From an uncultured Pelagibacteraceae bacterium (GTDB lineage: Bacteria; Pseudomonadota; Alphaproteobacteria; Pelagibacterales; Pelagibacteraceae), in the NCBI GenBank assembly GCA_902595795.1, contig CACJRK010000005.1, positions 1 to 64,000 of the forward strand: 64,000 nt of DNA, in the 5' to 3' direction. Position 1 is the stretch's first letter. Each line of letters starts with the position of its first letter. Of the stretch, positions 13,003 through 53,552 are shown in pieces. The notes beneath the pieces were generated by a model. The model did not search any database. It saw nothing but the letters and a program-made list of their open reading frames with translations, and was not told the origin of the DNA. The position numbers and the translations under genes are program-made.

Positions 13003-13021
13003 TAAATATGATTTAAAAAAA

Positions 13022-13047
13022 ATCCCCCCCAACGGAGTTGGGGGAGA
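13022..13047 (-). terminator. Terminator-like stem-loop after tmoX
   Basis: CCCCCAAC (13026-13033) pairs with GTTGGGGG (13037-13044) around a 3-nt loop. Read on the minus strand, the stem is followed by a run of T (complement of the A run at 13015-13020). It sits 25 bp past the tmoX stop and before the next gene start. This looks like an intra-operon attenuator or 3'-end stabiliser, which would let the binding protein be made in excess of the rest of the transporter. Confidence 0.75.
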
Positions 13048-13071
13048 TTAATAATTTAGTTTCTTTTTACC

Positions 13072-21511: not shown

Positions 21512-22981
21512 ATGACTGATCTAGAAAAGCATGTTAGCCAACCAGGACGTGCTAAATTAGTAAAAGACGTTAGAGCAAAAATTAAAGAATTAGGAATAAC
21601 TTATATTTATTTCCAGTTCATTTCAGTTACTGGAAGAGTTGTTGGAAAAGGTATACCAGCAGACCATTGGGAAAGAACTGCAGAAAAAGGTTTTCAATTA
21701 GTTTATGGATCCACTGCAAACTTATTCTTAGATCGTCACAATAATTATATCGGATACGGACCAGAGGCTATGGAGCTTGTAGGTATTCCTGATCCTGAGA
21801 CATTTGTACAATTACCTTGGGATAAAAGAGTAGGAAGAGTATTTTGTACATGTTTTAGAAATAGAGAAGAAAGAGAAAATCCAGGTGGTCATTTAACTTC
21901 AGACTGTAGAGGAAATTTAAGAATTTTCATGGACGAATTTAAAAAGAAACATGGACTTGAATTAAGAGTAGGTACAGAACCAGAAATGATGTGGTTGACT
22001 AGAAATGAAGATGGTTCTCCTACTGGGAAGGGTTTTTCCAAACCATTCTGTTACCATATAGACCAATTTGAATCTTTGAGACCTGTATTTATGAAAGTTA
22101 TTGAATATTCTAATGCCATGGGTCTAGACATGATTCAAGGTGACCATGAAGATGCTCCAGGTCAATTAGAGCTTAACTGGACTTATGATAACGTTTTACG
22201 AAATGCAGACAGATTATCCACTTATAGACAAATATGTGCGCAAGTTGCTAGAGAACACAATTTAATAGCTTGTTTTATGACAAAACCATTTATGGGAGTT
22301 TCAGCAAGTGGATGTCATACAAATATGTCTTTGTGGAAAGGTGGAAAGGTTAAAGTTAATAGACTTGGACATAAATCTTTACCGGGAGTAGACGGTGTAT
22401 TTAGTTATGTTGAAGGTGGAACTAATACTTTTATGCCTGATACAAAAGATATGCAAATGCCAGGTAAAATTGGTTTACAATCAATTGCAGGTATCATGAA
22501 ACACTTGCCAGCATTAACAGCTCTTGGATCTTCAACTGTTAATTCATACAGAAGATTATGGGACCAAGGATTTTGGGCTCCTGTTTATGCAGACTGGGGA
22601 TATCAAAACAGAACTTGTGGTTTAAGAGTTTCCGCTCCAGGAAGATTTGAGTATAGATCAGTAGACTCTATGCATAATCCTTATCTTTTAGGTGCTGCTT
22701 TGTTGAAAGCTTGCGATGAAGGCATAAGTAAGAAAATGAAACCAGCAGCTCCAGAGTCTAGAAACATTTATGAAGCTCAAAAAGCTGGTAAAGATGTTAA
22801 AAAACTACCATTAAGTTTAGGTGAAGCTTTAGATAGACTGGCAGAGGATGAAGTAATCAAATCTGCAATGCCAGATGAAATGTATAAAGTCTTCCATTGG
22901 TACAAAAACGATGAGTGGGAAAGGTTTCTTGGTGCAACTACGCAATGGGATCTGGATACTTATCTAGATTGTCTACCGTAA
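21512..22981 (+). CDS. Glutamine synthetase-like ligase, divergent from GmaS/GlnT
   Basis: This 489-aa enzyme keeps glutamine-synthetase catalytic segments: metal Glu pair GTEPEMMW, GDHEDAPGQLELNW, SASGCHTNMSLW (the NGxGxH-type loop), NSYRRLWDQGFW and RFEYRSVDSMHNPYL. It is about 50 residues longer than the type III/GmaS-like paralogue at 31557. A very strong ribosome site (AAGGGGGG) precedes the ATG. It sits between an FAD oxidoreductase and a glutamate-synthase-like trio that includes the amidotransferase. The likely reaction is ATP-dependent gamma-glutamylation of ammonia or an amine, the product being used by the following complex. True glutamine synthetase GlnA is different in length and context. 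Confidence 0.83.
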   Translation: MTDLEKHVSQPGRAKLVKDVRAKIKELGITYIYFQFISVTGRVVGKGIPADHWERTAEKGFQLVYGSTANLFLDRHNNYIGYGPEAMELVGIPDPETFVQLPWDKRVGRVFCTCFRNREERENPGGHLTSDCRGNLRIFMDEFKKKHGLELRVGTEPEMMWLTRNEDGSPTGKGFSKPFCYHIDQFESLRPVFMKVIEYSNAMGLDMIQGDHEDAPGQLELNWTYDNVLRNADRLSTYRQICAQVAREHNLIACFMTKPFMGVSASGCHTNMSLWKGGKVKVNRLGHKSLPGVDGVFSYVEGGTNTFMPDTKDMQMPGKIGLQSIAGIMKHLPALTALGSSTVNSYRRLWDQGFWAPVYADWGYQNRTCGLRVSAPGRFEYRSVDSMHNPYLLGAALLKACDEGISKKMKPAAPESRNIYEAQKAGKDVKKLPLSLGEALDRLAEDEVIKSAMPDEMYKVFHWYKNDEWERFLGATTQWDLDTYLDCLP

Positions 22982-23011
22982 GTCACAGAAAAATAGAAAG
23001 GGTATTAAAAT

Positions 23012-23956
23012 ATGTGTGGAATAGCAGGTTTAATTCATAGAGGAAAATCTTCAAATGTAGGAAGTGAACTTCAGGGTATGCTTCAGGCATTAAAACATAG
23101 AGGAGAGGACTCAACTGGTTACGCTTTATATGGTGATACAGATGGTAAAAATTTTATTATGCGATTCAAAGTGGGTGAAAATGTAGGAGAAGGAAGTTCT
23201 TCAATAATGGAAGATGTTTCAGTTTATGACGAAAGAAAAAAAGTTGTTGATCAAACTTTAGCTGAAATGGGTGCTAAAATAATTAAAGAGGAAAGAACTC
23301 TACCCTATTCTTTAAGATATGAATTAGAGTACGATGCTAAAGATCTTCTTAATTTTTCACAAACAATTGAGGCTATTCCCGGTGTTGAAATCCTTTCAAT
23401 GGGTAAATCATTAGAGGTTATTAAAGATCTTGGAAATGCTAAAGCAGTTTGCGATAGATACTCTTTAGATAAACTTGTAGGAACGCACGCTATAGGTCAC
23501 GCAAGAATGGCCACAGAATCTGGTGTCGATATTAAATCAGCTCACCCTTTTTGGGGTTATCCTTTTAGTGATGTTTCAGTAGTTCATAATGGGCAACTTA
23601 CAAATTACTGGAATAATAGAAGAGTATTAGAAAACAAGGGAATGAGGTTCATGTCTGAATGTGATTCAGAGCTTATTGCAGTTTATATAGCCCAAAAAAT
23701 GAGAGAAGGTGCAACCCTAGAAGAAGGAATGAAAGATTCTTTATTAGGTCTTGATGGTGTATTTACTTATTTTGTTGCAACAAAAGACTCGTTAGGTATG
23801 GCCAAAGATACAATGGCTGCTAAACCATTAGTGCTTTATGAATCAGATGATTTAGTTGCAATGGGATCTGAAGAAATTGCAATTAGATCAGTATTACCAC
23901 AAGAAATTGAAACATATGATCCATTTGATGGGGAGGTGAAAGTATGGCAAATCTAA
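23012..23956 (+). CDS. Class II glutamine amidotransferase subunit of a split glutamate-synthase-like enzyme (GlxB/MgsA-like, copy 1)
   Basis: This 314-aa Ntn-type amidotransferase has the catalytic N-terminal cysteine (MCGIAGLIHRG), LKHRGEDSTGYA, GHARMATES, VVHNGQLTNYWNNR and SECDSELIA. This is the order of the glutaminase domain of glutamate synthase. In the family it hydrolyses glutamine (or gamma-glutamylmethylamide) and tunnels the amine to the FMN subunit. It follows the ligase gene by 30 bp and overlaps the next gene by 13 nt. It is a paralogue of the gene at 28624 and is about 20 residues longer. Ammonia versus alkylamine specificity cannot be read here. Confidence 0.85.
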   Translation: MCGIAGLIHRGKSSNVGSELQGMLQALKHRGEDSTGYALYGDTDGKNFIMRFKVGENVGEGSSSIMEDVSVYDERKKVVDQTLAEMGAKIIKEERTLPYSLRYELEYDAKDLLNFSQTIEAIPGVEILSMGKSLEVIKDLGNAKAVCDRYSLDKLVGTHAIGHARMATESGVDIKSAHPFWGYPFSDVSVVHNGQLTNYWNNRRVLENKGMRFMSECDSELIAVYIAQKMREGATLEEGMKDSLLGLDGVFTYFVATKDSLGMAKDTMAAKPLVLYESDDLVAMGSEEIAIRSVLPQEIETYDPFDGEVKVWQI

Positions 23957-24798
23957 AAACTGTATCGAAAAAATCAAAAGCCCAGTCGATGGGTATGCAT
24001 ACCGAAGTACTTACAGGAAGAACACAACAGAAATTTTTTAATCCGGATGAGGCTGAAAACTTTTACTATTTTGGGACTTATGATGTTGATTTCAACAAAA
24101 GAACTGAACTAGATGTCATAGATATGACTGCACCTGAGGCAAACAAAGAAATCGATAATTTAATGAGTCAAGGTTATGGGACAATTGTAATAAAAAACCC
24201 TCAAGGAAAACATAGTCTAGGTGTTGGTATCTTAAATAAATTAAATTTAATTTTTGAGGGAAGTTTAGGTTACTTTGGTATGGGTTCTTGCGATGGTCCA
24301 ATAGTTAGAATCAATGGAAGAGTTGGTTGGTCATGCGCAGAAAATTTAATGGCTGGCAAAGTAGTAATCGAAAAGAATGCTGGATCTTGTTTCGGTGCAG
24401 CAATTAGAGGTGGTGATTTAATTTGCAAAGGTAGTGTTGGTGCCAGAACTGGTATTGATATGAAAGGTGGGACAATCATAATTGGTGGTGATGCTGGAGC
24501 TTTTACTGGCTTTATGATGCAAAGAGGTAGAATTATTATCCTTGGAAACGTTGGTATAAACCTTGGCGACAGTATGTACGATGGGACAATTTTCGTAGGT
24601 GGAGAAATAGGTTCTTATGGTAGTGATGCTGTAGATGCAGAATTAACATCAAGCGACCAAGATTGGTTAAAAAGAAAATTAAAAGTTGCAGAAATTGGTG
24701 AAAATTTTGATGTAAGTAAAATGAAAAAAATTGTAGCAGGTAAAAAACTTTGGAATTATGACAATTTGGAACCTACAGAGAAGAAGGGAGCAATTTAA
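23944..24798 (+). CDS. GXGXG-domain subunit of the split glutamate-synthase-like enzyme (GlxC/MgsB-like, copy 1)
   Basis: The 284-aa protein is a parallel beta-helix of the glutamate-synthase C-terminal (GXGXG) type. Repeating turns such as GSLGYFGMGSCDGP, GRVGWSCAENLMAGK, GSCFGAAIRGGDL, GSVGARTGIDMKGG and GGDAGAFTGFMMQRG cover about residues 85-230. It has an extra N-terminal ~50 residues compared with copy 2 (227 aa). The start overlaps the previous gene by 13 nt and the end shares one base with the next start. The domain has a structural role, connecting the amidotransferase and FMN sites. Confidence 0.85.
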   Translation: MANLKTVSKKSKAQSMGMHTEVLTGRTQQKFFNPDEAENFYYFGTYDVDFNKRTELDVIDMTAPEANKEIDNLMSQGYGTIVIKNPQGKHSLGVGILNKLNLIFEGSLGYFGMGSCDGPIVRINGRVGWSCAENLMAGKVVIEKNAGSCFGAAIRGGDLICKGSVGARTGIDMKGGTIIIGGDAGAFTGFMMQRGRIIILGNVGINLGDSMYDGTIFVGGEIGSYGSDAVDAELTSSDQDWLKRKLKVAEIGENFDVSKMKKIVAGKKLWNYDNLEPTEKKGAI

Positions 24799-26210
24799 TG
24801 CCTAAGAAAAAAAATAAAAAAGTTAAAAAAAATGGAAAAGGTGTTGGAGGAAAAGCAGACGTCCATGCTCATGAAGAAGGTAAAAGAAATAAAAGTTTAT
24901 TGGGACACAACGCTATTTTTACTCCTGAAGTAATAGACGATATTCATATTAAATCTCAATTAGGCAGATACAGAATGCGTGGAATGGCATTAATGAAAAA
25001 GATTCCTACTTTTGATGATTTGGTATTTTTACCTGGAACACTAACTAGATTTGTAATTGAAGGTTACAGAGAAAAATGTGAAACAAAAACTGTAATTGGT
25101 CCAAGATGTGAAAACCCAATAGAGTTAGATATTCCTGTATATATTACTGGTATGAGTTTTGGTGCATTATCTTACGAAGCTAAAACTGCTTTAGCAAGAG
25201 GAGCTACTATGGCTGGTAGTGCTACATGTTCTGGTGAAGGTGGAATGATACCAGATGAGAGAAGATATTCGGAAAAATGGTATTATCAATGTATTCAATC
25301 AAGATATGGTTTCAATCCTCATCATGCACAATTAGCAGATGGTATTGAAGTATTTATTGGACAGGGTCAAAAAGTTGGAATGGGTGGACACTTAATGGGT
25401 CAAAAAGTAACTGACCAAGTTGCTGAAATGAGATCGTTACCATCTGGTATTGACCAAAGATCTCCAGCGAGACACCCTGATTGGCTAGGACCAGACGATT
25501 TAGCTCTAAAAGTTGAAGAGTTAAGACAATTAACTAAAAATAAAGTCCCTATTCAATTAAAATTAGGTGCATCTAAAGTTTATGATGATGTACGTATGGC
25601 AGCAAAATGTGATCCTGACTCTATTTATTTAGATGGAATGGAAGGATCTACTGGAGCTGGTCCACATATAGCTGCTGCAAACACTGGTATTCCTGGTATT
25701 GCTGCAATTCGAGAAGCTAGAAGAGCAATCGACGATGTTGGTAAAACTGGAAAAGTAACATTAATTTATGCTGGTGGTGTAAGAGATGGTGCTGATATGG
25801 CTAAAGCTTTAGCTCTTGGAGCAGATGCAATAGCTATCGGTACTGGATCTATGATTGCATTAAATTGTAATAAAGATATTCCAGAAGCAAACTTTGAAAA
25901 AGAAATGGGAGTAAAAGCTGGTGAATGTTATCACTGCCATACTGGAAGATGTCCAGTAGGTGTTGCTACTCAAGATCCAAAATTGAGAGCAAGGTTAAAT
26001 CCAGATGATGCTGCATTAAGAGTTTACAATTATCTTCATTCAATGACTTTAGAGGCTCAACTTTTAGCTAGAGCTTGTGGTAAAACAAATATACATTCAT
26101 TAGAGCCTGAAGATTTAGCTGCATTAACATCTGAAGCTTCAGCTTTGGCAAAAGTTCCTTTAGCTGGAACTAACTATACAGTTGGAGTTGATAACTATCA
26201 CAAAATATAA
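24798..26210 (+). CDS. FMN-binding glutamate-synthase-like subunit with Fe-S cysteines (GlxD/MgsC-like, copy 1)
   Basis: This 470-aa protein matches the FMN domain of glutamate synthase: YITGMSFGALSYEAK, GEGGMIPDERRYSEKW, IGQGQKVGMGGHLMG, QLKLGASKVY, GAGPHIAAANTG, YAGGVRDGADMAKALALGADA and GTGSMIALNC. Cys377, Cys380 and Cys385 (ECYHCHTGRCPVGVATQ) are in the position of the [3Fe-4S] ligands of glutamate synthases. The paralogue at 30194 has none of them. The first ~35 residues form an unusual lysine-rich tail (PKKKNKKVKKNGKG), similar in composition to the start of the 138-aa protein encoded next. The family reaction transfers the amine to 2-oxoglutarate. Confidence 0.86.
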   Translation: MPKKKNKKVKKNGKGVGGKADVHAHEEGKRNKSLLGHNAIFTPEVIDDIHIKSQLGRYRMRGMALMKKIPTFDDLVFLPGTLTRFVIEGYREKCETKTVIGPRCENPIELDIPVYITGMSFGALSYEAKTALARGATMAGSATCSGEGGMIPDERRYSEKWYYQCIQSRYGFNPHHAQLADGIEVFIGQGQKVGMGGHLMGQKVTDQVAEMRSLPSGIDQRSPARHPDWLGPDDLALKVEELRQLTKNKVPIQLKLGASKVYDDVRMAAKCDPDSIYLDGMEGSTGAGPHIAAANTGIPGIAAIREARRAIDDVGKTGKVTLIYAGGVRDGADMAKALALGADAIAIGTGSMIALNCNKDIPEANFEKEMGVKAGECYHCHTGRCPVGVATQDPKLRARLNPDDAALRVYNYLHSMTLEAQLLARACGKTNIHSLEPEDLAALTSEASALAKVPLAGTNYTVGVDNYHKI

Positions 26211-26221
26211 GGATAATAATT

Positions 26222-26638
26222 ATGGCAAAAAAAAAGGGTAAAAAGATAGTTAAATCAAAAGCAAAAGAGATTAAAGGTCAGTTAGGTAAAAAAGCAGAAA
26301 CAGCAAGAGAAAAAATGATCGGCCAATCAATTGGTTACCGATATGATGTAAATCTTTTACCTGACTACAAAAAACTCACGCCATTTCTAAAAAAATATAT
26401 AGAAGCAATGGGATGGGATGACTTAAACTGGTTAGAAGATGTTCATATGGGATATGAAGAAGATAGACCCGCAGTATTTTGTAGAAATGCAAATGGTTGG
26501 GTTACTATTCCAGCATCAATTAAACTTCCAAACAATCAACAAGATAGAGACATGATTGCAAGAGAACTTTTAGTTAAGTTCCAAATGTCTCCAAAGCACC
26601 CTCTTGTTGATTTGAAAAAAGCTTATTTAAAATTTTAA
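26222..26638 (+). CDS. Unknown 138-aa protein with lysine-rich N-terminus
   Basis: I do not recognise this family. Residues 1-35 are very Lys-rich (MAKKKGKKIVKSKAKEIKG), much like the tail of the preceding FMN subunit. Residues ~45-138 look like a compact soluble domain with several Trp (MGWDDLNWLEDVHMGYEEDRP, NANGWVTIPASI) and one Cys. There is no signal peptide or membrane segment. It starts 11 bp after the FMN subunit and is followed by a strong stem-loop before amt, so it belongs to the glutamate-synthase-like operon. A role as an extra subunit or assembly factor is inference from position only. Confidence 0.75.
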   Translation: MAKKKGKKIVKSKAKEIKGQLGKKAETAREKMIGQSIGYRYDVNLLPDYKKLTPFLKKYIEAMGWDDLNWLEDVHMGYEEDRPAVFCRNANGWVTIPASIKLPNNQQDRDMIARELLVKFQMSPKHPLVDLKKAYLKF

Positions 26639-26762: not shown

Positions 26763-28163
26763 ATGACTGATCAGTTAGGTGCTCTTACAACCATATTTAC
26801 AGAATTTTACTACTGGGTAACAGTAGTACTGATGTTTTTAATTCACGTCGGTTTCTGTATGTATGAAGTTGGAGCTTCTCGATACAAACACCATCAACAT
26901 ACTCTAATGAAAAATACGATGCTGATACCTTTGGTAACAGTAACTTGGTTTTTCTTTGGTTGGTGGATTTACTGGGCATTCCCAACAGGACCGGGAATTG
27001 CACCTTCAATAATGAATGAAAGTACCGCGCTAATCACAGATGAATCTGCTTTTAGTGCTACATGGTACACAGCAACAAGTGAGTTAATGGCTGTCAATCT
27101 AGGAGATCACATTTCTGGTGTTTTCTGGGCTGCTTTTCTATTATTCTCATGGACTGCTGCGTCTATTGTTTCAGGAGCCATCATTGAAAGAATTACAACT
27201 TTTGCATTTGGTATATTAGCCATAGCAATTGGTTCTGTATTTTGGACAATTGATGCTGCTTGGGGATGGCACTTTGATGGATGGATGCTTAAAATTTTAG
27301 GATATCATGATGCTTATGCATCAGGAGTAATTCACGCAATTGCGGGTGGATTTGCTTTAGGTGTTCTTATGGTTTTAGGACCAAGAATTGGTAAGTTTTC
27401 ATCAAGTGGTGAACCAAGAAACATTGGACCAAGAAATCCTTGGCTAGTTACAGTTGGATTATTTTTAATTTATACTGGTTTCTGGGGATTTTATGCAGCG
27501 TGTAACATACCAATCTTTGATCTTGGACCTGAATACGGGATGGAAGGTGTAACTTATTGGACAGCTACAAACATATATGTAACCCCTACTACACTTAGTG
27601 GTATTACTTTTAACTTCTTGATGTCGTTATCAGGAGGATTATTAGCTGGTTATTGGATTGCTAAAGGTGATCCTTTCTGGACATACTCAAGTGGACTAGC
27701 AGGTGTTATCTGTGCTTCAGCTGGAAATGATTTATATCACCCAATTCAAGCAATGATAATTGGTATGATTGGTGTTGTAATTGCATATAAACTACATTAC
27801 TGGGTTGAACGTAAGTTCAAAATTGATGATGCAGTTGGTGCAGTAGCAGTACATGGATATGCTGGATTTGTTGGTCTAGTAATTTGTGGTTTTGTTTTAA
27901 ATGGTTATCCGTCATCTGGTTACAGTGTTGGAGCTATGTGGGACGGAACTACTTATGCTACTATTAACCCATTAGGACAATTTCTAGGAGCAATAATTAT
28001 GTTCGTAGTTCTTGGACTAATACCAGGCTATATCATAGCTAAAGTGCTTAACGGAATGGGTAAATTAAGAATCCCACGTGAAGTAGAAATAGCTGGATTA
28101 GACTACGAAATGATGGAGTCTGCTAAGGAAGATGAAAAAGCAGTTTCATCTGCAACCAGGTAA
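26763..28163 (+). CDS. amt: Ammonium/methylammonium transporter, Amt family
   Basis: This 466-aa membrane protein has about 11 predicted helices. Both Amt pore histidines are in place: GVIHAIAGGFALG and AVAVHGYAGFVGL. Other family segments are SWTAASIVSGAIIERIT, DAAWGWH and NFLMSLSGGLLAGYW. The C-terminal tail after helix 11 is short and acidic. GGAGAGAG precedes the ATG. No PII (glnK) gene is adjacent, unlike many amt loci. Position directly after the amine-glutamylation genes suggests uptake of ammonium or methylammonium for that pathway (inference). A 74-aa membrane protein follows after 11 bp. Confidence 0.92.
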   Translation: MTDQLGALTTIFTEFYYWVTVVLMFLIHVGFCMYEVGASRYKHHQHTLMKNTMLIPLVTVTWFFFGWWIYWAFPTGPGIAPSIMNESTALITDESAFSATWYTATSELMAVNLGDHISGVFWAAFLLFSWTAASIVSGAIIERITTFAFGILAIAIGSVFWTIDAAWGWHFDGWMLKILGYHDAYASGVIHAIAGGFALGVLMVLGPRIGKFSSSGEPRNIGPRNPWLVTVGLFLIYTGFWGFYAACNIPIFDLGPEYGMEGVTYWTATNIYVTPTTLSGITFNFLMSLSGGLLAGYWIAKGDPFWTYSSGLAGVICASAGNDLYHPIQAMIIGMIGVVIAYKLHYWVERKFKIDDAVGAVAVHGYAGFVGLVICGFVLNGYPSSGYSVGAMWDGTTYATINPLGQFLGAIIMFVVLGLIPGYIIAKVLNGMGKLRIPREVEIAGLDYEMMESAKEDEKAVSSATR

Positions 28164-28174
28164 AGGAGAAAAAT

Positions 28175-28399
28175 ATGGCTACAGTATCAAACTGGATAGA
28201 TCATCTAAGTGCTGAGGAAGTTGCCGGAGCAATTTACCCGGGGGCTGGATCCGTAGAAGGAATACTAGTTATTATAGGTATTATTTTATGGGTTGGTTGG
28301 CATGTTTTAACAGCTAGATCTGAAAGTGAAGAACTTGATAGATTGGCTAGAAAAAGACATAGCGCCAATGATCATAAAAGCAACGTTACCGACTGGTAA
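28175..28399 (+). CDS. Small single-helix membrane protein downstream of amt
   Basis: The 74-aa product has one hydrophobic helix at about residues 27-45 (SVEGILVIIGIILWVGWHVL), with an acidic/basic cytoplasmic-type tail (SESEELDRLARKRHSAND). It begins 11 bp after amt with a good ribosome site (AAAGGAGA) and ends 16 bp before a terminator, so it is the last gene of the operon. I do not recognise it. An accessory role to Amt is possible but unproven. Confidence 0.72.
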   Translation: MATVSNWIDHLSAEEVAGAIYPGAGSVEGILVIIGIILWVGWHVLTARSESEELDRLARKRHSANDHKSNVTDW

Positions 28400-28415
28400 C
28401 ATAAAATAAAAATTT

Positions 28416-28448
28416 GGGCGCTACTTAGGTGTGGCGCCCTTTTTTTTT
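28416..28448 (+). terminator. Rho-independent terminator closing the 20-28 kb operon
   Basis: GGGCGCTAC (28416-28424) pairs with GTGGCGCCC (28431-28439), with one G-U pair, around a 6-nt loop. Nine T follow at once (28440-28448). This is a textbook intrinsic terminator and the clearest in the window. Confidence 0.92.
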
Positions 28449-28457
28449 ACAAAAAAT

Positions 28458-28610
28458 ATGACTGATAAAGATAACGAAGAACTGAGACCAACTAAAATGA
28501 GAGGTGTAGCTTTTCCAAAAGCTAAGTACGGAGTGATAGCGGCTATTATCATCATTGTAGTTGTAAACCTTATCTATTATAAAGAATTCTTTTTATCGTT
28601 AATTAATTAA
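28458..28610 (+). CDS. 50-aa single-helix membrane protein
   Basis: An ATG at 28458 opens a 50-codon frame ending at TAA 28608-28610. The product starts MTDKDNEELRPTKMRG, then has a strongly hydrophobic helix at about residues 24-40 (YGVIAAIIIIVVVNLIYY) and a short tail. The polar start, single helix and position 13 bp before the amidotransferase gene make it a credible small membrane protein. It starts only 9 bp after the terminator T tract, so its transcript must begin inside or upstream of the terminator. No homologue is known to me. Confidence 0.6.
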   Translation: MTDKDNEELRPTKMRGVAFPKAKYGVIAAIIIIVVVNLIYYKEFFLSLIN

Positions 28611-28623
28611 AATTCTTAAATCT

Positions 28624-29508
28624 ATGTGTGGAATTGTTGGAATATATTTGAAAACAAAAAAATTTGAGAAAAATTTAGGTAAAATGTTATCAGGTATGCT
28701 TAACAACATGGAGTCTAGAGGACCAGATAGTGCAGGATTTGCTATATATAAAAATTCAGACAAAAAAGAATATAAATACTCTTTGTGCATAAATAATTTA
28801 GATTTTAGTAAATTTAAAAAAGATATTTTAAAAAAAATTAACAATTTAAAACTAAATCAATACTCAGATCATGTAATTGTAAAGACTACAGAAATACCAA
28901 AAAAATTTATTAAGTTTATTAATATTGAATTCCCTGAAGTTTCTATTGTTGGATATGGACATTCTATTGAAATTTTTAAACAAGTTGGAAACCCAAAAGA
29001 TGTGGTTAAAAAATTTAATTTAGAAAGTTTTAGTGGTACACATGGTATTGGGCACACTAGAATGGCAACGGAAAGCGCAATAACAACTGATGGTTCTCAC
29101 CCTTATTCAACTGGAGAAGATGAATGTTTAGTTCATAATGGTTCTTTATCTAATCATAATAACTTGAGAAGAGAACTTAGGAAAAAAGGAAATGCTTTTA
29201 CTTCTGAAAATGATACTGAAGTTGCTGCAGGTTATGTTTCTAATAGCCTCTCAAATAATAATTCTTTAAAGGATACTCTTGTTTCAGGTCTAAAAGACCT
29301 AGATGGTTTTTATACATTTATAGCAGGAACGAGAAAAGGATTTGCAGTAGTAAGAGATGAAATTGCATGTAAACCTGCAGTTATAGCTGAAACAAAAAAT
29401 TATGTTGCTATTGCTTCTGAATTTCAGGCGATGGCTCATCTTCCTGATGTTAACAATGCAAAAATTTTTGAGCCAGAACCTGGTATTGTGTATTCTTGGG
29501 GAAATTAA
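28624..29508 (+). CDS. mgsA: N-methylglutamate synthase amidotransferase subunit (MgsA/GlxB, copy 2)
   Basis: This 294-aa class II amidotransferase keeps the catalytic Cys2 (MCGIVGIYL), MESRGPDSAGFAIY, GIGHTRMATES, CLVHNGSLSNHNNLRR and TSENDTEVAAGYV. Its length fits MgsA, the subunit that releases methylamine from gamma-glutamylmethylamide or glutamine. It starts the second module mgsA-mgsB-mgsC-gmaS and shares one base with mgsB (TAATG). It is clearly paralogous to the gene at 23012 but more Lys/Asn-rich. The N-methylglutamate pathway assignment rests on the gmaS-type ligase three genes downstream. Confidence 0.87.
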   Translation: MCGIVGIYLKTKKFEKNLGKMLSGMLNNMESRGPDSAGFAIYKNSDKKEYKYSLCINNLDFSKFKKDILKKINNLKLNQYSDHVIVKTTEIPKKFIKFINIEFPEVSIVGYGHSIEIFKQVGNPKDVVKKFNLESFSGTHGIGHTRMATESAITTDGSHPYSTGEDECLVHNGSLSNHNNLRRELRKKGNAFTSENDTEVAAGYVSNSLSNNNSLKDTLVSGLKDLDGFYTFIAGTRKGFAVVRDEIACKPAVIAETKNYVAIASEFQAMAHLPDVNNAKIFEPEPGIVYSWGN

Positions 29509-30191
29509 TGAAATTAGATTTAAAAAAATTAAAGTTAAGACAAGTAAACGAACAATTGCAAAGTTTAGATCGAAAAATAAACGATAGAAATTTTACTATA
29601 ATAAATCCTGAAGGTAATCATGCTGTATGTGCTGGGTTAAATGAAGAATTAAATATAAATATTAAAGGTCATGTTGGATATTATTGTGCTGGAATGAATC
29701 AAAATGCAAATATTACAATTGAAGGCAATGTGGGAACTGGTGTAGCTGAAAATATGATGTCTGGAAAAGTTCATGTGAAAGGCAATGCGTCACAATCAGC
29801 GGGTGCAACTGCTCATGGTGGGCTTTTAATTATTGATGGTGATGCTAGTTCAAGATGTGGGATATCCATGAAAGGTGCAGATATAGTTGTTAAAGGTTCA
29901 GTTGGCCATATGTCAGGTTTCATGTCTCAAGCAGGGAACTTAGTGGTATGTGGTGATGCTGGTGAGGCATTAGGTGATAGTTTGTATGAAACAAACATAT
30001 ATATAAAGGGTAAAGTTAAATCGCTTGGTGCAGATTGTATTGAAAAAAAAATGGATAAAAAGCATATAAAAAAACTTAGTTTACTTTTACAGCAAGCTAA
30101 TATTAAAAATCAAAAAGCTGAAAACTTTAAAAGATATGGATCAGCAAAAAAACTATATAATTTTAAAATAGATAATATTTCTAACTATTAA
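29508..30191 (+). CDS. mgsB: N-methylglutamate synthase GXGXG subunit (MgsB/GlxC, copy 2)
   Basis: I take the ATG at 29508, whose A is the last base of the mgsA stop; an in-frame TTG 12 nt upstream is less likely. The 227-aa protein is a beta-helix with repeats like GHVGYYCAGMNQN, GNVGTGVAENMMSGK, GNASQSAGATAHGG, GDASSRCGISMKGA and GSVGHMSGFMSQAG. This matches the GXGXG domain of glutamate synthase. Size agrees with MgsB (about 225-230 aa). It lies 2 bp before mgsC and would join the glutaminase and FMN subunits in one complex. Confidence 0.87.
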   Translation: MKLDLKKLKLRQVNEQLQSLDRKINDRNFTIINPEGNHAVCAGLNEELNINIKGHVGYYCAGMNQNANITIEGNVGTGVAENMMSGKVHVKGNASQSAGATAHGGLLIIDGDASSRCGISMKGADIVVKGSVGHMSGFMSQAGNLVVCGDAGEALGDSLYETNIYIKGKVKSLGADCIEKKMDKKHIKKLSLLLQQANIKNQKAENFKRYGSAKKLYNFKIDNISNY

Positions 30192-30193
30192 AT

Positions 30194-31522
30194 ATGAAAA
30201 AAAATAACAAAACTCATCCTCGTCAATCATGGACTTTCGATGAATATACAAATTCTGAAATAAGAAGAGCTGCAGCAACAGGTATTTATGATATTAGAGG
30301 TGGAGGATCAAAAAGAAAACTTCCCCACTTTGATGATTTATTATTTTTAGGAGCCTCAATGTCTAGATATCCATTGGAGGGTTATAGAGAAAAATGTACT
30401 ACAAATGTAACTCTTGGAACTAAATTTGCTAAAAAACCCCTTGAATTAGATATACCAATTACAATTGCAGGAATGAGCTTTGGTGCATTGTCAGGACCAG
30501 CAAAAGAAGCTTTAGGAAGAGGTGCAAGTGCTGCTGGTACCTCTACTACTACTGGTGACGGAGGAATGACTCCTGAAGAAAGAGGCCAATCTAAATATTT
30601 AGTTTACCAATTATTACCATCTAGATATGGAATGAATCCAGACGATTTAAGAAAAGCAGATGCAATTGAAGTTGTTGTAGGTCAAGGCGCAAAACCTGGT
30701 GGTGGTGGAATGTTATTAGGTCAAAAAATAAATGACAGAGTTGCAAAAATGAGAACTTTGCCTAAAGGAGTTGATCAAAGATCTGCATGTAGACATCCTG
30801 ACTGGACTGGGCCGGACGATTTAAAAATAAAAATTTTAGAATTACGCGAAATTACAAAATGGAAAGTTCCTATCTTCATAAAAATTGCGGGTGCAAGACC
30901 ATATTACGATACTGCTTTAGCTGTAAAAGCAGGTGCTGATGCAGTAGTGCTAGATGGAATGCAAGGAGGAACGGCTGCTACTCAAGAGGTTTTTATAGAA
31001 AATGTTGGTCAACCTACTTTAGCTTGTATTAGACCCGCAGTAGATGCATTGCAAGATTTAAATGCACATAGAGAAGTGCAATTGGTGATATCAGGTGGAA
31101 TTAGAAATGGTGCAGATGTTGCAAAAGCTTTAGCTCTCGGAGCAGATGCCGTTTCAATAGGTAGTGCTGCAATGATAGCTATAGGTGATAATGATCCTAA
31201 GTGGGAAAAAGAATACAATAAGCTAGGTTCTACAGCGGGTGCTTATGATGATTGGCATGAGGGAAATGATCCAGCTGGAATATCAACTCAAAATCCAACT
31301 TTAATGAAAAGGTTAGATCCAGTTAAAGCTGGTAAAAAATTAACTAATTATCTAAAAGTGATGACACTAGAGGCACAAACACTTGCAAGAGCTTGTGGAA
31401 AAAATAGTTTACATAATTTGGAGCCTGAAGATTTATGTGCACTAACTGTTGAAGCTGCTGCAATGGCTAGAGTTCCTCTGGCAGGAAGCAATTGGATACC
31501 AGGAATAAAAGAAAAAAAGTGA
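30194..31522 (+). CDS. mgsC: N-methylglutamate synthase FMN subunit (MgsC/GlxD, copy 2), no Fe-S cysteines
   Basis: This 442-aa protein has the glutamate-synthase FMN-domain segments ITIAGMSFGALSGPAKEAL, TGDGGMTPEERGQS, VVGQGAKPGGGGMLLGQK, RHPDWTGPDD, FIKIAGARPYYDT, VLDGMQGGTAA and SGGIRNGADVAKALALGADA. Where copy 1 has Cys377/380/385, this protein reads AGAYDDWHEGNDPAGISTQNP with no cysteine, so it should lack the [3Fe-4S] cluster. It would then need another electron route to FMN. In the N-methylglutamate pathway it joins methylamine to glutamate or 2-oxoglutarate. It lies 34 bp before the gmaS-like gene. Confidence 0.87.
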   Translation: MKKNNKTHPRQSWTFDEYTNSEIRRAAATGIYDIRGGGSKRKLPHFDDLLFLGASMSRYPLEGYREKCTTNVTLGTKFAKKPLELDIPITIAGMSFGALSGPAKEALGRGASAAGTSTTTGDGGMTPEERGQSKYLVYQLLPSRYGMNPDDLRKADAIEVVVGQGAKPGGGGMLLGQKINDRVAKMRTLPKGVDQRSACRHPDWTGPDDLKIKILELREITKWKVPIFIKIAGARPYYDTALAVKAGADAVVLDGMQGGTAATQEVFIENVGQPTLACIRPAVDALQDLNAHREVQLVISGGIRNGADVAKALALGADAVSIGSAAMIAIGDNDPKWEKEYNKLGSTAGAYDDWHEGNDPAGISTQNPTLMKRLDPVKAGKKLTNYLKVMTLEAQTLARACGKNSLHNLEPEDLCALTVEAAAMARVPLAGSNWIPGIKEKK

Positions 31523-31556: not shown

Positions 31557-32882
31557 ATGCCAAAAAATTTATCTAAGATAGCAAAAGCTAAAAAAATTAA
31601 ATATTTTTTAATAAGTTTCGTGGATCTTTTTGGTGTTTTAAGATCTAAATTAGTTCCAGCTCAAGCAATTGGAGATATGCAGAAAGATGGTGCAGGTTTC
31701 GCAGGTTTCGCTACATGGCTAGATATGACACCTGCTGATAGTGATATGTTTGGCGTTCCTGATCCTGATAGCCTAATTCAACTACCATGGAATAAAGAAA
31801 TCGGTTGGTTGGCTTCTGATTTATACATGGATGGTAAACCTGTTAAAGCTTCTCCAAGAATAATGCTTAAAGAGCAGATAAAGAAAATGTCACAAAAGAA
31901 ACTTCAAATGAAATCAGGTGTTGAGTGTGAATATTTTCTGATTTCTGAAGACGGACATTCTTTGGCAGATAAAAGAGATATTCAATCTAAACCTTGTTAT
32001 GACCAATCTGCTCTAATGAGAAGGTATGATTTAATAAAAGAAATTTGTGATTGCATGTTAGAAATGGGTTGGAAACCTTACCAAAATGACCACGAAGATG
32101 CTAATGGTCAATTCGAGATGAACTGGGATTATTCAGACTCTCTAATTACTGCGGATAGACATGTCTTCTTTAAATTTATGGTAAAAAGTTTAGCCGAAAA
32201 ACACGGTTTAAGAGCAACTTTTATGCCAAAACCGTTTAGTAATTTGACTGGTAATGGTTGTCATGCTCATGTTTCAGTATGGAATGGAAAAATAAATAAA
32301 TTTTTAGATAATAAAGATCAATTAGGATTAAGTAAGCTAGCTTATAATTTTTTGGGTGGAATCATGAATAACACTCAGGCACTTTCTGCTTTTTTTAATC
32401 CAACTATCAATAGTTATAGAAGAATAAATGCACCACCAACAAAATCTGGAGCAACATGGTCTCCAAGCAGTATTTCGTACACAGGAAATAACAGAACTCA
32501 CATGATTAGAATTCCTGACAAAGGTAGATTTGAGTTAAGATTAATGGATGGTTCAGCCAATCCTTACTTGCTTCAAGCAGGTATTATTGCTGCAGGACTA
32601 GAGGGGATTAATAAAAAATTAAATCCAGGAAAACCCCTACATTGTAATATGTATGAAGATTATAAAAAATATCCTAAATTAAAAAAATTACCGAATGATA
32701 TAAATCAAGCTATTAGTATGCTTCAAAATAGTAAAGCGCTTTCAAAAGCTTTTGGTGCAGATGTCATTAAAAGCTATATTAAGTTAAAAAATTCAGAAAT
32801 TAAAAATTTTAAAACGAGAAATAATTTTAATAAAAGAAAACCAGTGTCACAATGGGAAAAAGATAATACTTTAGATTGCTAA
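31557..32882 (+). CDS. gmaS: Gamma-glutamylmethylamide synthetase / type III glutamine synthetase family
   Basis: The 441-aa protein matches the type III glutamate-ammonia ligase family to which GmaS belongs (about 435 aa). It starts with AKKIKYFLISFVDLFGVLRSKLVP. Catalytic segments are SGVECEYFLIS (metal Glu pair), QNDHEDANGQFEMNWDY, NLTGNGCHAHVSVW, NSYRRINAPP and GRFELRLMDGSANPYL. The reaction is methylamine + glutamate + ATP to gamma-glutamylmethylamide. Three mgs genes precede it and an ammonia-lyase-like gene starts 3 bp after it. GmaS and GlnT differ only subtly, so methylamine specificity is inferred from the mgs context. Confidence 0.87.
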   Translation: MPKNLSKIAKAKKIKYFLISFVDLFGVLRSKLVPAQAIGDMQKDGAGFAGFATWLDMTPADSDMFGVPDPDSLIQLPWNKEIGWLASDLYMDGKPVKASPRIMLKEQIKKMSQKKLQMKSGVECEYFLISEDGHSLADKRDIQSKPCYDQSALMRRYDLIKEICDCMLEMGWKPYQNDHEDANGQFEMNWDYSDSLITADRHVFFKFMVKSLAEKHGLRATFMPKPFSNLTGNGCHAHVSVWNGKINKFLDNKDQLGLSKLAYNFLGGIMNNTQALSAFFNPTINSYRRINAPPTKSGATWSPSSISYTGNNRTHMIRIPDKGRFELRLMDGSANPYLLQAGIIAAGLEGINKKLNPGKPLHCNMYEDYKKYPKLKKLPNDINQAISMLQNSKALSKAFGADVIKSYIKLKNSEIKNFKTRNNFNKRKPVSQWEKDNTLDC

Positions 32883-53527: not shown

Positions 53528-53552
53528 AAGGGCGGTTAAAAAAACCGCCCTT
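53528..53552 (-). terminator. Stem-loop between potD and potB
   Basis: AAGGGCGGTT (53528-53537) pairs with AACCGCCCTT (53543-53552) around a 5-nt loop; on the minus strand seven T follow. It is a full intrinsic-terminator structure inside the pot run, 32 bp past the potD stop. Partial read-through would give more binding protein than permease. Confidence 0.85.

Follow-up and report, generated by a model that had tools for sequence, protein, structure and literature searches.

Ammonium transporters of the Amt family are textbook membrane proteins; work on them has dealt with homotrimers whose single soluble partner is GlnK. Our literature search found just one small protein that acts on an Amt, sP36 of Methanosarcina mazei, whose target is AmtB1 according to excerpts of PMC10714827. 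Small membrane proteins that bind transporters are described in excerpts of PMC10710835, namely AcrZ, a 49-aa protein with one helix on AcrB, and MgtS, MgtU, and LucB. Within the literature searched, which lay mostly outside subscription journals, we found no description of a bacterial small membrane protein linked to Amt and none of a membrane-embedded partner of a prokaryotic Amt; in the review PMC10433425, the terms 'small protein' and 'accessory' have 0 occurrences each. The methylated-amine gene clusters of Roseobacter contain dmmDABC, amtB, mgsABC, and gmaS, as described in excerpts of PMC5520151. In HTCC1062, amt is SAR11_1310 (PMC2704228, in part), glxBCD are SAR11_1313-1315, and glnT is SAR11_1316 (PMC3160333, in part).

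We analyzed a window of 64,000 nt, that is, the whole stretch of DNA under study, from a Pelagibacter-type (SAR11) genome with a 1.1-Mb assembly. The window holds a methylated-amine gene cluster on the + strand in the order Amt, p74, hairpin, T9, p50, mgsA, mgsB, mgsC, and gmaS. The Amt-family transporter (26763..28163, 466 aa) belongs to a distinct alphaproteobacterial clade whose partner is p74; it matched PF00909 with 176.8 bits (cut-off 23.2) and scored 133.9 bits against the 'marine subtype' model TIGR03644, below the threshold of 514. The closest solved Amt by sequence is the distantly related 6eu6, and in the alignment with it the motifs VIHAIAGG and AVHGYAG retain both histidines, which we take to be the Amt pore pair. 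A Shine-Dalgarno-like AAAGGAG, read from the sequence, stands at 28162..28168, followed by p74 (28175..28399), a frame of 74 codons with an ATG start and a TAA stop. Downstream lie a conserved GC hairpin (28416..28439), a terminator-like tract of nine T on its 3' side (28440..28448), and p50 (28458..28610), whose 50 codons begin nine bases past the T tract. In the mechanical ORF list, p50 is 59 aa long and starts at a GTG within the hairpin (28431); relatives support the ATG at 28458 as the start. The coordinates that the first-pass annotation had given for the two small genes were right. By their order, the HTCC1062 tags between SAR11_1310 and SAR11_1313 are probably p74 and p50, and our literature search found no naming of SAR11_1311 or SAR11_1312.

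Behind p50, three genes resemble those of N-methylglutamate synthase, namely mgsA (28624-29508), recognized by PF13522/PF13537, and mgsB (29508-30191) and mgsC (30194-31522), recognized by identity to annotated Ruegeria and Ponticoccus genes. They are followed by gmaS (31557..32882), a type III glutamine synthetase-like gene for gamma-glutamylmethylamide synthetase (TIGR03105, 624.9 bits against a cut-off of 469.6). The mgsABC genes are 46-83% identical to Ruegeria and Ponticoccus genes annotated as glutamine amidotransferase, GlxC/GXGXG, and FMN glutamate-synthase-like; the mgs names follow excerpts of PMC3160333 and PMC5520151. The region 5' of Amt (21512-26210) holds a second set, made up of GlnA-like, GATase, GXGXG, and GltS-like genes with about 28-50% identity to mgsABC-gmaS, and in other families such a paralogous set is often close to the Amt-p74 pair. 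Between this set and Amt we noticed p138 (26222-26638), a 138-aa protein that is 72-79% identical in distant Alphaproteobacteria, where it also follows a GltS-like gene. With no match in Pfam or NCBIfam and none convincing in the PDB, p138 is evidently an unnamed, strongly conserved family. Genes further upstream presumably belong to the trimethylamine pathway (Tmm-like, Tdm-like, and TmoXVW-like), as read from their sequence.

We found p74 in 22 and p50 in 23 of 61 genomes (the source genome and 60 relatives), the latter count including a remnant in genome G004. Relatives of p74 were collected from 541 stretches that fit the pattern, of which 488 encode a relative and 80 were kept; the named ones are Pelagibacter or Pelagibacteraceae single cells and MAGs. 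The p74 alignment (19 rows) has a mean column identity of 72%, with W7, H10, Y21, P22, G23, G25, E28, W39, G41, W42, and E50 among its invariant residues, and that of p50 (19 rows) has 69%, with an almost invariant PKAKYG. Over unsaturated pairs, the median dN/dS was 0.114 for p74 (114 distinct sequences) and 0.203 for p50 (109), and zero pairs reached 1 for either protein. In frame, pN/pS was 0.245 for p74 and 0.313 for p50; the same DNA read in frames +1 and +2 gave 1.20 and 1.29 for p74, and 1.03 and 1.92 for p50. Both frames are short, and neither matched a Pfam or NCBIfam family over the cut-off, as would fit the reading of one or both as chance ORFs. This reading is negligible in probability and is ruled out by dN/dS values of 0.11 and 0.20 against 1.03-1.92 in the control frames, and length, start, and position are also kept in relatives. 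Both p74 and p50 are real, conserved genes under purifying selection. The first-pass annotation had named missing codon-level conservation as the result that would overturn its two small proteins; with both frames conserved, its claim was not overturned.

A Shine-Dalgarno-like motif was observed ahead of p74 in 125/125 distinct loci and ahead of p50 in 0/125; three loci left out of this set (L089, L098, and L213), to which no p50 start was assigned, all have intact p50 frames. The best Pfam matches, DUF6186 for p74 (E 0.061) and ECSCR for p50 (E 0.013), are far below the cut-off and were taken as chance. Distant p74 proteins gave only sub-cut-off family matches, and a profile search of the PDB with p74 alignment A3 returned nothing at E<=10. 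Mutual homology of p74 and p50 is unsupported (profile comparison probability 5.5). In G141, p74 is cut after 36 aa on a contig whose end repeats its own operon in inverted orientation, and we read this truncation as an assembly artefact. In G023 (L065 / L020 / L026), p74 is tandemly duplicated behind Amt, giving proteins of 72 and 81 aa.

The first-pass annotation had tied the two small proteins to the neighboring transporter, and the tie proved tighter than it saw: both co-occur with one Amt clade, p74 across the whole class. Among distinct loci with both p74 and p50, Amt lies 5' of p74 in 125/125, at a gap of 12-19 nt. At the level of the order (197 genomes), the Amt orthologue (E<=1e-100) was found in 94, p74 in 95, and p50 in 95, the genome lists being compared by eye. 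All 94 genomes with Amt also have p74, and the sole extra p74 genome, G022, has a contig that begins inside Amt; the p50 list differs from that of p74 by lacking G141, the assembly artefact, and by including G004, the remnant. At the level of the class (289 alphaproteobacterial genomes), this Amt clade was present in 27 at E<=1e-160, separated by a clear gap from the other Amts (E 3.9e-95 or weaker, 45-48% identity), and besides these 27 a further piece of 230 residues sits at a contig end in G421. The p74 profile matched 26 of the 289 genomes, all within the 27, and in the 27th, G448, tblastn located p74 behind Amt; no p74 was found in any of the 289 that are without this Amt clade. The Amt clade occurs in 25 genomes beyond the order; in 24 of them p74 follows Amt on one contig and in one orientation, and in G410 the two are split, each at a contig end. 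Second Amts of 46-48% identity in G260, G485, and G390 are without p74. In plasmid records, p74 accompanies 3/3 Amts of at least 60% identity and 0/11 of lower identity; Ponticoccus alexandrii has one Amt with p74 and one without. A search for p74 beyond Alphaproteobacteria, run on 200 genomes of the phylum, gave it in G000 and G476 only, plus a weak match in G581 that was rejected as lying inside an unrelated 422-aa frame. Among the sampled genomes, the Amt-p74 partnership is obligate.

In Ruegeria conchae and Ponticoccus, the p74 homologue is annotated as 'hypothetical protein' between 'ammonium transporter' and mgs-like genes. The Ruegeria and Ponticoccus plasmids carry dmm genes (dimethylamine monooxygenase), amt, a 72-aa gene, mgsABC-like genes, and glnT. 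On a plasmid of Parasedimentitalea marina (L263), p74 is unannotated and the Amt match falls in two pieces under 'hypothetical protein', perhaps a decaying copy. The neighbors of this Amt clade suggest ammonium or methylammonium as its substrate. In four of the 13 distant loci (L218, L219, L220, and L224), the fetched flanks gave no match of convincing identity to any of the query methylated-amine genes, which tells against a firm assignment of the substrate.

For p50, the best reading is a SAR11-specific add-on to the Amt-p74 module. Beyond the order, the class search located p50 in G345 alone, where it sits at the end of a contig. In this non-SAR11 genome (L208 9000-9900), the p50 homologue adjoins gmaS and lies behind a cut asd-like gene; the piece looks chimaeric or foreign (chimaera or transfer). 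In G109, G127, and G134, p50 still follows p74 though no mgs or gmaS match comes after it, the next genes having been inspected in G109 and G134. G004 has a natural deletion that runs from the GlnA-like gene through p74 and takes Amt with it, while mgsABC and gmaS are intact. What is left at the site is a broken piece of the GlnA-like gene and, after it, a p50 remnant without N-terminus or stop (L260 13100-13510). The three genomes with no mgs/gmaS match after p50 and the decay of p50 in G004, which as co-loss evidence is one case, suggest that p50 goes with Amt-p74 and not with the enzymes. Where gmaS directly follows p50, many relatives have a TATGTTA-like stretch shortly 5' of its ATG (equivalents of 28600-28640), which could be the -10 box of a promoter that gives gmaS a near-leaderless message.

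As the first-pass annotation had described, each frame encodes one hydrophobic helix, with Kyte-Doolittle 19-residue maxima of 2.18 (p74) and 2.24 (p50); across relatives, the maxima are at least 1.65 in 84 p74 and at least 2.00 in 80 p50 sequences. The excess of K/R lies on the C-side in 84/84 p74 and on the N-side in 80/80 p50 sequences. The positive-inside rule relates the side of K/R charge to membrane orientation. On this basis, p74 is predicted to be N-out/C-in and p50 N-in/C-out, both as single-pass proteins. The bias is less marked in the 12 distant p74 proteins, of which 11 lean the same way and one is a tie. AlphaFold2 predicted a helix at residues 26-60 of p74, with block means of 93 and 92 over residues 31-50 (mean pLDDT 70.8, pTM 0.39), and a helix at residues 20-40 of p50 (mean pLDDT 74.9, pTM 0.40), these single-helix models being uninformative on any interface. 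Because its helix exceeds a membrane span, p74 may extend into the cytosol.

Between the two genes, the hairpin has a 9-pair stem, GGGCGCTAC/GTGGCGCCC, with one G-T pair. Its minimum free energy is -20.6 kcal/mol, compared with -8.97 +/- 2.4 for shuffles (z -4.85), and Rfam gave no match within the window. Across distinct intergenic sequences, the stem lies close 5' of the p50 ATG. RNAalifold on a MAFFT alignment recovered 5 pairs only, with stems misaligned, and fixed-register counting was used instead. In this register, 99 of 101 distinct sequences were anchored; L114, where the called p50 start falls in the hairpin region, and L212, whose hairpin is present with another stem sequence, were dropped. 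Pairs 4-7 form in 99/99; pair 5 is GC in 83, GT in 8, and AT in 8, and pair 7 is TG in 47, TA in 33, AT in 15, CG in 3, and GT in 1. The hairpin is thus conserved at the RNA level with compensatory changes on both sides of the stem. Of 100 distinct sequences scored for the T tract, 94 show at least 5 T among 8 bases and 6 show fewer, one of the 6 (L188) being a mis-anchored row; the tract is weak or missing in L013, L024, L111, L170, and L212.

A stricter scan of the whole window detected three hairpin-plus-T-tract sites, including two comparison cases on the - strand. One (13021..13049) lies behind a TmoX-like binding-protein gene, and the other (53528..53552) separates a binding-protein gene from the ATG of its ABC permease gene. 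From the end of the T tract to the likely next ATG on the same strand, the distance is 12 nt at the first site and 0 nt at the second; the binding-protein and permease roles at both sites are our assumption, read from sequence alone. A hairpin and T tract directly before the next ATG, behind likely binding-protein genes, may be general in this small genome.

The first-pass annotation had spoken of a strong terminator after the last gene of the Amt operon. The window sequence itself has the form of an intrinsic (Rho-independent) terminator, a GC hairpin and then a T tract, and to this extent the claim holds; in relatives, however, the hairpin is kept and the T tract is not always. As for the operon end, partial termination within one operon is likelier, because the T tract is weak in some relatives and the same layout stands before an ABC permease gene. 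A leaky terminator inside the operon is, in our judgment, the likelier identity of this hairpin. That the hairpin is a true operon end, with p50-mgs/gmaS transcribed from its own overlapping promoter, we consider unlikely: the T tract is strong here and reaches at least 5 T of 8 in most relatives, and many relatives have TAAAAT-like AT-rich stretches 5' of the hairpin, but the p74 stop and the p50 start are only 31-76 nt apart, save for 295 nt at the duplication locus, no + strand promoter was found nearby in a scan with the sigma-70 consensus only, and the same layout separates a binding-protein gene from its permease gene. The earlier reasoning, by which p50 transcripts must either run through the hairpin or start from a promoter within its region, is sound.

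On balance, we favor a reading in which p74 serves this Amt clade as a dedicated accessory subunit, p50 is a second, SAR11-specific one, and the hairpin is partly read through. The Amt clade with p74 appears often in methylated-amine or related glutamine-amidotransferase gene clusters. From the Amt message, p74 would be made and placed in the membrane so that the short conserved N-terminus (W, YPxxG, E) faces outward and the tail inward, and p74 would most likely pack on the Amt trimer, setting its stability or activity. As a second one-helix protein of opposite topology, p50 would join the same module. The hairpin would most likely pass part of transcription, keeping the output of p50 and mgs/gmaS below that of Amt and p74. 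The inheritance of p74 and p50 with one Amt type suggests that they are working parts or regulators of Amt, and it is plausible that they tune it. Their gene linkage and co-loss can also be explained by a role in biogenesis or by co-selection within one operon.

Only tentatively do we entertain the possibility that p74, together with p50 in opposite orientation in SAR11, forms obligate subunits of the Amt trimer that would alter its cargo or gating and give control independent of PII; with similar reserve, the altered cargo might be, for example, methylammonium versus ammonium. If true, cells that are among the most abundant in the ocean would have a layer of control that does not depend on PII. 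A p74 that merely shields Amt from proteolysis, as a biogenesis or stability factor with no role in transport, seems distinctly unlikely to us; it draws on the same linkage as the accessory-subunit reading and has precedents in MgtS/MgtU with MgtA/MgtB (PMC10710835, in part), nothing observed speaks against it, and the two readings are inseparable by sequence. We would also be surprised if p74 and p50 anchored mgs/gmaS to Amt so that imported methylamine passed directly to gamma-glutamylmethylamide synthetase. The gene 3' of p50 is gmaS in 88 and mgsA in 30 of the 125 distinct loci (118 together), and the Ruegeria and Ponticoccus plasmids described above join Amt, the 72-aa gene, and the enzyme genes, both of which fit such an anchor. 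However, p50 is kept behind p74 in three genomes where no mgs/gmaS match follows it, it decays in G004 where mgs/gmaS are intact, and L218-L220 and L224 have Amt-p74 without nearby mgs/gmaS at convincing identity.

PII is normal in Alphaproteobacteria. Pelagibacter reportedly responds to nitrogen limitation without PII, as the title of Smith et al. 2013 states. We found PF00543 absent in 9/9 genomes of the genus tested first, with the control positive in 13/14. Across the order, PII was present in 46/197 genomes, and 0/46 of these are from genus g1. A paper citing Smith et al. 2013, of which excerpts were available, places a PII system in other SAR11, in agreement with the PII that we found in other genera of the order. 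The absence of PF00543 in the sampled genus would suit p74 (and p50) substituting for GlnK, closing Amt under plentiful nitrogen in PII-less Pelagibacter. We give this substitution very little credence, since p74 is spread over Alphaproteobacteria and so hardly arose as a replacement, and as the main reading it is ruled out by G109, G127, and G134, which carry Amt-p74-p50 plus PII. If the accessory-subunit reading is true, the Amt family would gain a further part, a membrane-embedded partner that is conserved across Alphaproteobacteria and could bear on ammonium and methylamine handling in PII-less Pelagibacter. Each of p74 and p50 stands for a protein family without a name, in cells that rank among the most numerous in the ocean.

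Compared with the described systems, p74 and p50 resemble AmtB-GlnK in that the gene for a small partner is linked to that of an ammonium transporter. GlnK, however, is a soluble trimer of PF00543, and neither p74 nor p50 matched PF00543 at E<=1. The likeness to sP36 lies in a small protein tied to Amt, and sP36 demonstrates small-protein control of an Amt; according to the same excerpts of PMC10714827, sP36 is without a transmembrane helix, becomes membrane-bound on ammonium upshift, and brings GlnK1 (PII) to AmtB1. Unlike sP36, p74 has a helix, is encoded beside Amt, and is also present in PII-less cells. The Roseobacter clusters of Ruegeria and Ponticoccus have the same Amt clade, a p74 homologue, and the mgs/gmaS order, but no p50 was seen between them, and the 72-aa protein carries no annotation beyond 'hypothetical protein'. 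With AcrZ, MgtS, MgtU, and LucB, as excerpts of PMC10710835 present them, p74 and p50 share one hydrophobic helix, a very small size, and dedication to a transporter; both are shorter than about 80 aa with a single transmembrane helix, as are modulators of the AcrZ/MgtS kind. Those proteins serve other transporter families; for p74 and p50, the dedication is seen as a genetic tie to one transporter. Small one-helix partners of transporters are already known, and p74 and p50 would join them as new families.
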